Source of the DNA: Hyphomicrobiales bacterium
GTDB lineage: Bacteria; Pseudomonadota; Alphaproteobacteria; Rhizobiales; Aestuariivirgaceae
Direction of reading: 5' to 3'
Assembly: GCA_026987255.1 (NCBI GenBank)
Contig: JALSNA010000177.1
Location: 1 to 14,375, forward strand
DNA length: 14,375 nucleotides
Made by a program: the position numbers and the translations under genes
Notes under the pieces: generated by a model
Seen by the model: only the letters and a program-made list of their open reading frames with translations
What the model was told of the DNA's origin: nothing
Database searches by the model: none
Part shown: positions 8,577 to 12,867 of the stretch, piece after piece
How the letters are laid out: every line of letters starts with the position of its first letter
Position numbering within the stretch: position 1 is the first letter of the stretch

Positions 8577-8595
8577 TAGGGCGTAGACCCATAAA
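8577..8595 (+). repeat. Degenerate single end of an R3-type palindrome
   Basis: TAGGGCGTAGACCCATAAA matches 15 of 19 bases of the TA-flanked left end of the R3 element at 10981-10999. No matching inverted right end is visible before the next R1 copy begins near 8634, so this is a partial or decayed element. The bases between (8596-8633) contain a small GATAT/ATATC hairpin and nothing else I recognise. Confidence 0.5.
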
Positions 8596-8633
8596 CCCCG
8601 CGCCGCCAGCGTGGATATCGCGAAATATCAGTG

Positions 8634-8749
8634 GGGCATCTCCATCAACAGTCTGAAGACCGTCCTCACCCTCTGCCAACCGTCCGTCATGTCCGATGAT
8701 TGGGGTGGAGGGGGCGGGGATGGACGCGCAGGCGTTTTTACAGAGCCCC
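8634..8749 (+). repeat. R1 interspersed repeat, copy A
   Basis: About 116 bp shared with 9646-9772. Blocks include GGCATCTCCAT, GTCTGAAGACC, TCCTCACC, ATGATyGGGGTGG and GGATGGACGCGCA, then GC-TTTTT and a final CCCC. The unit is an imperfect inverted repeat: the CCGTCCTCACC arm at 8660-8670 faces a diverged GC-rich arm ending GGGGATGG near 8723. It contains no open reading frame of its own that I believe. It lies between hslO and the yebC promoter. Confidence 0.75.
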
Positions 8750-9645: not shown

Positions 9646-9772
9646 CGGCATCTCCATTGACTGTCTGAAGACCATCCTCACCTCTCTTTCCAGCCACCCA
9701 CAGTGTCCCATGATCGGGGTGGTTGGTTGGCAGAAGGTGAGGATGGACGCGCAAGCATTTTTGGAGTTCCCC
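9646..9772 (+). repeat. R1 interspersed repeat, copy B
   Basis: About 127 bp, the best-preserved R1 copy. The inner arms CCATCCTCACC (9672-9682) and GGTGAGGATGG (9736-9746) are perfect 11-bp inverted repeats. Inside them CCACCC (9694-9699) can pair with GGGTGG (9717-9722). Outside the stem are the left tail GGCATCTCCATTGACTGTCT and the right tail ACGCGCAAGCATTTTT ending in CCCC. It fills the gap between the convergent yebC and arsC genes. Confidence 0.8.
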
Positions 9773-10257: not shown

Positions 10258-10677
10258 TCAATCCTCGGCGAGGCGGATGATGACATCGATGCTGCCGACG
10301 CGCGCGCCATCTGGCAGTGGCGGCAGGTGGCTGATGGTGAGCTGGTCACCGGGGATGTCGATCAGGCTGTCGTTCCTGGGCGAATAGAAATGATAGTGCT
10401 CGGAGGTGTTGGTGTCATAGAAGGCCTTGGCGCCATCGGCTATGACCTCGCGCAGCAGACCGGCGCGGGTGAACTGGTTGAGCGTGTTGTAGATGGTGGC
10501 CAGGGAGATGGACAGATCCTGACGCGCCGCCTCGCGGTGCATCTGCTCGGCGGTGACGTGCCTGTGGCCCTTGCCGAAAAGCATGCCCGCCAGGGCGATG
10601 CGCTGGCGCGTGGGGCGCAGGCCGGCGGCCCGCAGCTTTTCGATGATCTGCTCTTCGTTCAATTTCAGCATGTCCAT
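10258..10677 (-). CDS. irr: Iron response regulator Irr (Fur family)
   Basis: A Fur-family winged-helix repressor of 139 residues, closest in pattern to alphaproteobacterial Irr, which represses or activates iron and haem genes under iron limitation. GLRPTRQRIALAGML (19-33), HVTAEQMHREA (40-50), the recognition helix SLATIYNTLNQFTRAGLLREV (58-78) and AFYDTNTSEHYHFYSPRN followed by SLIDIP are visible. It lacks the CxxC zinc motifs of classical Fur and any N-terminal Cys-Pro haem motif. The Irr histidine cluster reads His94-Tyr95-His96 instead of the usual three histidines. ATG 10677 has AGGTG 7 nt upstream; ATG 10671, with AGGA 7 nt upstream, is nearly as good. The stop lies beside the arsC start. 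It probably autoregulates (see the dyad at 10723-10740). Confidence 0.9.
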   Translation of the reverse strand: MDMLKLNEEQIIEKLRAAGLRPTRQRIALAGMLFGKGHRHVTAEQMHREAARQDLSISLATIYNTLNQFTRAGLLREVIADGAKAFYDTNTSEHYHFYSPRNDSLIDIPGDQLTISHLPPLPDGARVGSIDVIIRLAED

Positions 10678-10705
10678 ATCCTGACACCTGTTGCATATAT
10701 ACAAC

Positions 10706-10809: not shown

Positions 10810-10848
10810 GGTGGCTGGCAGGGGGTGAGGATGGTCTTCAGAGAGTTA
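10810..10848 (-). repeat. R1 repeat, interrupted inverted half-copy, first part
   Basis: GGTGGCTGG, GGTGAGGATGG and TCTTCAGA in this order are the reverse complement of the left half of R1. The copy breaks off at TA (10847-10848), where the R2 palindrome begins, and continues at 11146. The distal arm of R1 is absent; 10741-10809 shows nothing else I recognise. Confidence 0.75.
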
Positions 10849-10980
10849 GGGTCTGGACTCAACAAAAACGTGGCGCCAGTCTGGTGGCCAGCAACAGGAG
10901 ACCATGAAAAAATGTGCAATTACAAGCGTAAGCGCTTCTCTCCTGTTGCTGGCATCCACGCCTTTATTGAGTCCAGACCC
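10849..10980. mobile_element. R2 palindromic element, long form (MITE-like)
   Basis: A 132-bp element with perfect 14-bp ends GGGTCTGGACTCAA (10849-10862) and TTGAGTCCAGACCC (10967-10980), bounded by TA on both sides. The next arms CGTGG/CCACG pair as well. Inside sits a second perfect 15-bp inverted repeat, GCCAGCAACAGGAGA (10887-10901) with TCTCCTGTTGCTGGC (10939-10953). Compared with the copy at 12804-12867 it has exactly 68 bp more, all in the centre. It encodes no transposase, so if mobile it is non-autonomous. It is more AT-rich than the neighbouring genes. Confidence 0.65.
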
Positions 10981-10982
10981 TA

Positions 10983-11143
10983 GGGTCAGGACCCATAAAT
11001 TTGCACGGCATATGCAGGATTTATGCTGCATATCAGCGTCCTTTCGCCCTCGACAATACCTTCAGGTATTGCCCGCGGACGAAAGAAAGCTGATATTTTG
11101 CCTAAATCCTGCATATGTCATCCCTCTTTATGAGTCCTGACCC
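10983..11143. mobile_element. R3 palindromic element (MITE-like)
   Basis: A 161-bp element in tandem with R2, bounded by TA (10981-10982 and 11144-11145). The outer arms GGGTCAGGACCCATAAA (10983-10999) and TTTATGAGTCCTGACCC (11127-11143) match at all but one position. Further arms are nested inside: CATATGCAGGATTTA (11009-11023) with TAAATCCTGCATATG (11103-11117), ATATCAGC with GCTGATAT, CTTTCG with CGAAAG, and a central CAATACC-TTCA-GGTATTG hairpin (11054-11071). The whole unit can fold into one long hairpin. The ends resemble those of R2. No protein gene of its own. Confidence 0.65.
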
Positions 11144-11145
11144 TA

Positions 11146-11158
11146 ATGGAGATGCCCG
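11146..11158 (-). repeat. R1 repeat, interrupted inverted half-copy, second part
   Basis: ATGGAGATGCCCGC-like bases are the reverse complement of the R1 left end (GGCATCTCCAT). They resume exactly after the TA that closes R3, completing the half-copy begun at 10810-10848. Confidence 0.7.
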
Positions 11159-11290: not shown

Positions 11291-11587
11291 TCAGGCTTCG
11301 GCCTGGGCGGCGATGCGCTTCTTGATGTGCTTTTTCAGCTTCAGCGCCTTGTCCGAAAGCTGCGAATCGCGGGCCTTGAGCAAGAAGGCATCCAGGCCGC
11401 CGCGATGCTCCACGGATTTCAGGGCGCTGGTGGAGATGCGGAAACGGTAGCTTTCGCCCATGATGTCGCTCATCAGGTGCACGTTCACCAGGTTGGGCAG
11501 AAAGCGGCGGCGGGTCTTGTTGTGGGCGTGGCTGACGTTGTTGCCGGTCATCACGCCCTTGCCGGTCAGTTCGCAGCGGCGGGCCAT
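11291..11587 (-). CDS. rpmB: 50S ribosomal protein L28
   Basis: A basic 98-residue protein beginning [29 protein letters not shown], the characteristic L28 opening, with [10 protein letters not shown] and the C-terminal [12 protein letters not shown] helix. L28 is a component of the large subunit. The alphaproteobacterial form is longer than the roughly 78-residue E. coli protein. It stands alone, not with rpmG, between its own candidate promoter (11700-11728) and a strong terminator (11228-11257). A long leader with inverted repeats precedes it. It is divergent from the DUF3108 gene. Confidence 0.97.
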
Positions 11588-12794: not shown

Positions 12795-12803
12795 CATTGC
12801 CCA

Positions 12804-12867
12804 GGGTCTGGACTCAACAAAAACGTGGCGCCAGTCTGGCGGCCACGCCTTTATTGAGACCAGCCCC
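12804..12867. mobile_element. R2 palindromic element, short form, upstream of typA
   Basis: A 64-bp element. Its left 42 bases match the R2 copy at 10849 with one mismatch and its right end matches with two. The 26-base arms (12804-12829 and 12842-12867) pair at 21 positions around a small GCCA/TGGC hairpin. There are no flanking TA pairs here, so it has either decayed or arrived otherwise. It ends 18 bases before the typA start codon and so lies in the typA leader or promoter region. Confidence 0.65.

Follow-up and report, generated by a model that had tools for sequence, protein, structure and literature searches.

Among bacterial miniature inverted-repeat elements (MITEs) that duplicate a TA on insertion are the Correia elements of Neisseria and the Nezha elements of cyanobacteria, linked to IS630. 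The autonomous parent of a MITE may be lost or unassembled, and its presence in the same genome is not required. Among insertion sequences (IS), IS711 belongs to the IS427 group. In the excerpted description of PMC3281130, IS427-group elements of Paracoccus measure 832-865 bp, generate 2-bp duplications (4 bp in ISPha1) and carry two overlapping transposase open reading frames (ORFs) with a frameshift motif. The part of PMC2266754 that concerns IS711 gives a length of 842 bp, two ORFs and duplication of the TA of YTAR, and reports a preference for the palindromic Bru-RS repeats. YTAR duplication is also reported for E. coli IS5 in an extract of PMC10359306.

We analysed a window of 14,375 nucleotides, the whole of contig C177 from a 2.5-Mb genome assembled in 529 contigs, in which two palindromes, R2 and R3, stand in tandem in intergenic DNA between rpmB and a Fur-family gene. 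Like the Correia and Nezha elements, R2 and R3 are short, palindromic, multi-copy and TA-bounded; their ends are instead of IS5/IS427 type. From sequence comparison we conclude that R2 and R3 are, very probably, gene-less miniature element families moved in trans by an IS427-group IS5-family transposase and landing at YTAR. They are a new example of a kind already known, the mini-transposon with IS5/IS427-type ends. As far as the excerpted account of IS711 (IS6501) of Brucella and its Bru-RS1 and Bru-RS2 repeats extends, the locus resembles it in the use of the TA of YTAR and in insertion into palindromic repeats (here R1); the inserted units here are miniature elements, and the likeness is one of description rather than of aligned sequences. 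The features of the window that bear on this reading are as follows.

8577..8632, plus strand: R4 fragment with end TAGGGCGTAGACCC, from a third element bounded by TA; adjoins R1
8634..8749, plus strand: R1 copy, uninterrupted at the insertion site (joined-site match)
9647..9772, plus strand: R1 copy, uninterrupted; empty-site reference (joined-site match)
10258..10701, minus strand: Fur-family regulator gene (PF01475), downstream of the insertion
10810..10848, minus strand: R1 remnant left of the insertion, from a truncated R1 copy (joined-site match)
10847..10848, no strand: left TA of the target duplication; the joined empty site has one TA
10849..10980, plus strand: R2, 132-bp palindromic miniature element with ends GGGTCTGGACTCA on both sides
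10981..10982, no strand: TA common to R2 and R3, junction GACCC-TA-GGGTC
10983..11143, plus strand: R3, 161-bp TA-bounded palindromic miniature element; left end GGGTCAGGACCCA of IS left type, right end GGGTCAGGACTCA of IS right type
11144..11145, no strand: right TA of the target duplication (joined empty site)
11146..11157, minus strand: R1 remnant right of the insertion, the R1 terminus (joined-site match)
11291..11587, minus strand: rpmB (ribosomal protein L28; PF00830), upstream of the insertion, same strand
12802..12867, plus strand: shortened R2-type relic, first end CAGGGTCTGGACTCA, second end decayed

An EF-Tu-type GTPase gene (PF00009; 12886 onward) has the R2-type relic a short way upstream. 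A scan of the window against Rfam at gathering scores gave zero matches.

The empty site in R1

The original prediction held that R2 and R3 are TA-bounded, non-autonomous mobile elements, that they had entered an older repeat, R1, with duplication of a TA, and that one of them had inserted at the TA edge of the other. TA dinucleotides do bound both palindromes (10847-10848, 10981-10982 and 11144-11145), the middle one being common to R2 and R3. When 10829-10848 is spliced to 11146-11156, 29 of the resulting 31 bases agree, without a gap, with the reverse complement of 9647-9677, as had been claimed, and the match proved longer than first stated. By BLAST the joined sequence aligns with 8634-8681 over 48 bp (87.5%, E 1.8e-12) and with 9647-9698 over 52 columns (86.5%, E 1.8e-12). 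Insertion into an R1 repeat is further borne out by the R1 consensus, built from 22 other copies in the same genome and the two window copies, whose positions 1-51 are 94.1% identical to the joined sequence over 51 ungapped bases. The interrupted R1 is therefore a truncated copy, made up of 10810-10848 and 11146-11157 on the minus strand. The R1 target that carries the insertion reads GTTAAT; in place of the TA of the joined site the uninterrupted window copies, read in one orientation, have CA or TG, a one-base difference.

A tandem of this kind might also arise by repeat misassembly in a fragmented genome, the assembly comprising 529 contigs, several of which end inside R3, ~110-127 bp from the contig edge. 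The outer flanks nevertheless rejoin without a gap to one R1 copy, unlike those of a random misjoin, and TA-sharing neighbours recur in other contigs and in the same-genus genome G007. We regard misassembly as highly unlikely.

Copies, ends and further empty sites of the R2 and R3 families

The inverted-repeat arms of R2 are 27 nt long (89% identity) and those of R3 72 nt (79%). The end 13-mer GGGTCNGGACNCA occurs five times in the window with one mismatch allowed, against 0.36 expected by shuffling. A genome search for the termini, proposed with the original prediction, found TAGGGTCWGGACYCA exactly 75 times in the own genome (reversed control, 0) and 126 times with up to two mismatches (control, 5). 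In 86 own-genome loci plus the window we delimited 37 complete elements, 27 of R3 type and 10 of R2 type, a partial census in that the DNA search scored 40 of 117 candidates. Including both TAs, R3-type elements measure 165-166 bp and R2-type elements 68, 136-137 or 254-255 bp, the R2 ends being common to R2 and the 254/255-bp type. Contigs C515, C198 and C179 contain copies that agree with R3, TAs included, at all 165 bp; for R2 the nearest full-length relative in the set of loci compared lies in contig C322 and shows 94% identity over 136 bp. R2 and R3 are thus short, bear terminal inverted repeats, contain no transposase gene and exist in many copies, and the comparison of copies within this genome confirms them as two families of miniature inverted-repeat elements.

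The two families differ in the symmetry of their ends. Exactly one ACCCA and one ACTCA end are present in 22 of the 27 R3-type copies, the remainder comprising two with ACTCA at both ends and three with a further change. In all 10 R2-type copies each end reads ACTCA or TCTCA. Judged by these motifs, R3 keeps the left/right end identity of an insertion sequence, and R2 looks like a right-right palindrome.

Contigs C11, C78, C89 and C197, in which the element interior is seen, and C186 and C190, represented by an end match only, terminate ~110-127 bp inside R3. Part of the fragmentation of the assembly would seem to stem from the R3 family.

For each of the 37 elements we excised the element and joined its flanks with one TA; a junction-spanning match was available for 12. 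Four of the 12 are clean empty sites, ungapped at the junction: L042, an R2-type element in R1 (84.6% over 78 columns), the R3 copies L003 (88%) and L018 (89%) in R1, and L013, an R3 at the TA edge of R4, which after excision is identical to the uninterrupted L060 at 121 of 122 positions (99.2%). Where the joined sites of L003 and L018 have TA, their best references read GA and CA, respectively. L012 gave a weak junction match (75%, E 0.002), and in the other seven an adjoining element with a similar end caused the joined sequence to hit only its own flank. L042 occupies the same R1 position as the window insertion, and a copy in contig C89 (L016), which ends at the contig edge, shares this flank. 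With the window site and four others, duplication of TA on insertion is well supported by the joined sites, and these empty sites together with the multi-copy TA-bounded ends bear out the non-autonomous mobility that had been predicted.

The same observations bear on whether R2 and R3 could be structural REP/BIME- or ERIC-like repeats spread by recombination or gene conversion, with the empty site a coincidence. Strong hairpins are predicted for both, and the window copies are intergenic, as such repeats would be; yet five empty-site matches, sharp TA boundaries, flanks that differ among element copies and ends common to an IS family (see below) all speak against this explanation, which we consider extremely improbable.

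IS5-family elements with the same ends and target

Autonomous elements with these ends are found in other genomes. In G007, of the same genus, the end TAGGCTCAGGACCCATAAA, one base off the R3 end, precedes an IS5-type ORF; the right end of this element lies beyond the contig. The two ORFs of this element match DUF4096 (PF13340) and DDE_Tnp_1 (PF01609), and score 118.9 and 129.6 bits against the NCBIfam model NF033580 'IS5 family transposase' (cut-off 110). For the two ORFs of a second genome, G041, one passes (143.6) and the other falls just below the cut-off (106.4). In both closely read IS loci (L150 in G007, L151 in G041) the transposase ORFs lie in two frames.

Scanning with the first G007 ORF gave 215 confirmed stretches, of which we kept the best 80; several come from the same genomes, and the loci are not all independent. 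More than 120 bp of upstream sequence was available for 73 of these and more than 900 bp of downstream sequence for 67. Allowing up to three mismatches per end, the left end was found at 69 of the 80 loci, the right end at 62 and both at 55. Ten shuffled end patterns produced no pairs at the 80 loci, one of them giving 11 right-end matches. All 55 pairs are 832-860 bp apart, and in 13 both ends have at most one mismatch. CCC stands at positions 12-14 in 56 of 69 left ends, and CTC in 61 of 62 right ends. Two decayed IS copies in the relatives G022 and G052, 826 and 829 bp long, are also bounded by these ends. Among 30 DUF4096 loci from relatives, some cut by contig ends, just two had a pair, indicating that the ends mark an IS5 subgroup and not the whole family. 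An unbiased inverted-repeat search around the same 30 loci gave no uniform picture, DUF4096 being common to several kinds of IS5 element.

The miniature elements and these insertion sequences have a common target. YTAR surrounds the TA at 34 of the 37 miniature elements (15 of them CTAG), compared with 6 of 128 TA dinucleotides (one CTAG) in the window background with the insertion removed and 185 of 2053 TA across 171,150 unique contexts drawn more widely from the own genome, with element edges included. In 12 of the 37 an edge is made by a neighbouring element; the other 25 have YTAR in 23 cases (nine CTAG). Of the 54 IS copies for which both ends and their flanks were available, 52 lie at YTAR (33 CTAG). 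Miniature elements and IS copies alike thus duplicate TA within YTAR.

These results bear on the proposed parent. The original prediction derived the palindromes from an IS630/Tc1-mariner element, for which TA duplication, here supported, is the expected signature; no IS5 parent, moreover, was found in the own assembly either. A DDE_3 search for an IS630-family transposase nevertheless returned zero matches in the own genome (the same search gave matches in 3 of 14 control genomes), the ends are paired on IS5-family elements at 55 of 80 loci among the IS5-family loci surveyed, and the YTAR preference is common to R2/R3 and the end-bearing IS5-family copies. Ends, end asymmetry and YTAR target are of an IS5-family subgroup type. 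The proposed parent is probably wrong, and we hold descent from IS630/Tc1-mariner to be very improbable. TA duplication alone does not point to IS630/mariner, given that IS5-family elements of this kind also duplicate TA; YTAR context and left/right end asymmetry can separate the two.

The comparison of ends and target fits the IS427 group within the IS5 family, an assignment based on size, two ORFs, a 2-bp duplication and the description excerpted from PMC3281130, not on the sequences of named members. In that partial account the group, including IS1248 and ISPpa2 of Paracoccus, resembles the 55 IS loci in size (832-860 bp here) and L150 and L151 in their two-frame ORFs. R2 and R3 differ from it in being gene-less and 132 and 161 bp long, with only the ~20-bp end matching the G007 IS. 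R2 and R3 were compared with 201 bp of this one IS, and their interiors gave almost no match to it beyond the ~20-bp end.

Within the own genome, an incomplete assembly of 529 contigs in which absence is weak evidence, neither the DUF4096 profile nor the G007 ORFA protein used as a query found a match, and for the 201 bp from the 5' part of the G007 IS nearly all matches were confined to the common ~20-bp end. An autonomous IS with these ends was thus not found in this assembly; it was found elsewhere, at 55 of 80 loci, with a same-genus copy in G007. A multi-copy 840-bp IS would be likely to break an assembly of this kind and could be missing from it.

Under the IS427-group reading, the parent would be an IS5/IS427-group element of ~840 bp with ends TAGGGTCAGGACCCA and TAGGGTCAGGACTCA. 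Its transposase would recognise ends of ~15-19 bp, TAGGGTCWGGACYCA(TAAA), and insert at YTAR, best at CTAG, duplicating the central TA. We infer that such a transposase acted in this genome; what comparison of the sequences displays directly is single-TA empty sites, common ends, a common target and nesting in R1.

Order of insertion, tandem junctions and neighbouring repeats

The two uninterrupted window R1 copies are 84% identical to the R1 consensus. The gradient of identity, from R3 (100% to three other copies) through R2 (94% to its nearest relative) to R1 (84% to its consensus), suggests insertion in the order R1, then R2, then R3. R2 would have inserted at a YTAR site in a truncated copy of R1, the older intergenic repeat; the edges of R2, reading Y-TA-GGG and CCC-TA-R, would each again be YTAR, and R3, from a recently amplified family, would then have inserted at one of them. 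The locus would in this way preserve stacked insertions, R1 and then R2 and R3, alongside several internal empty sites in one genome.

The R2-TA-R3 pair might alternatively have entered R1 as one composite unit by way of its outer ends. In contig C194 (L002) an R2-type end does stand beside the same R3 end with a different outer flank, as a mobile composite would, although C194 breaks off at the contig end. Other junctions differ: R3 adjoins R3 in C377, an R2-type end adjoins the other R3 end in C165, and R4 adjoins R3 in C88 and C465, a variety that fits independent insertions. We therefore judge a composite unit unlikely and favour two successive insertions.

Direct contact between elements is frequent, 12 of the 37 abutting another element's end at nine junctions. 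Since the ends start with GGG and finish with CCC, inserted edges themselves read YTAR, and this may explain the tandems without any special mechanism, giving a simple, testable account of why R2 and R3 stand side by side. A broader proposal, tentative and on balance doubtful, is that the elements build their own landing sites, each YTAR target becoming two YTAR edges, with chains and accumulation on palindromic repeats as the outcome. If true, it would describe a self-propagating nested-repeat system in a GC-rich genome where YTAR is rare, common in principle to IS711 and Bru-RS.

R1 is a hairpin repeat of ~120 bp, represented in the own genome by 44 match rows from the 40 of 159 candidates that were scored. 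Its consensus matched (E <= 0.001) in 4 of 35 genomes: the own genome and the same-genus G010, with weaker matches in G018 and G041. The longest word common to the two flanks of R1 averages 5.68 bases over 22 copies, compared with 4.24 for shuffled pairs (maximum 4.91 in 500 shuffles); 7 to 10 bases are common in 6 of the 22 copies and fewer in the other 16. Words longer than chance suggest that R1 is itself probably mobile, with duplications of ~7-9 bp, and it has the look of a mobile palindromic element of a second, unrelated kind. If so, the locus is a three-layer nest. An R1 flank occurs at 6 of the 37 insertions and in 15 of 1120 random 60-mers, a comparison in which insertions have two flanks and the control also spans non-intergenic DNA. 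The excess at R1 is inseparable from intergenic bias.

Turning to relatives, a search of 35 genomes matched R2/R3-like DNA in 16, among them 10 of the 11 of the genus with the own genome counted, part of it representing common ends only; the exact end pattern is present in 23 of 60 genomes. All 11 genus genomes, the own included, have a Fur-family match. In the ten sister Fur loci tested, the flanking sequence covered contained no rpmB, LMWPc or YebC gene, and these loci offered no orthologous site for comparison. A literature search with four end 13-mers listed two papers, each containing one of the four and both unrelated by title.

Genomes of the same family in other genera (G011, G018, G023 and G027) have a different, 268-269-bp miniature element whose 20-bp ends are the same, its copies (L087 in G027, L110 in G023, L091 in G011 and L092 in G018) being 72-91% alike over their whole length. 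The R4 fragment at 8577-8632 is 98% identical over 56 bp to copies in C81, C89 and C469, in which a matching inverted end is present. A comparison of R4 with the ~269-bp element of the other genera gave no match, which speaks against their being the same element. The inverted ends of R4 lie ~270 bp apart in C89 and C469, and R4 copies (L058, L060, L066 and L068) adjoin copies of R1, R2 and R3.
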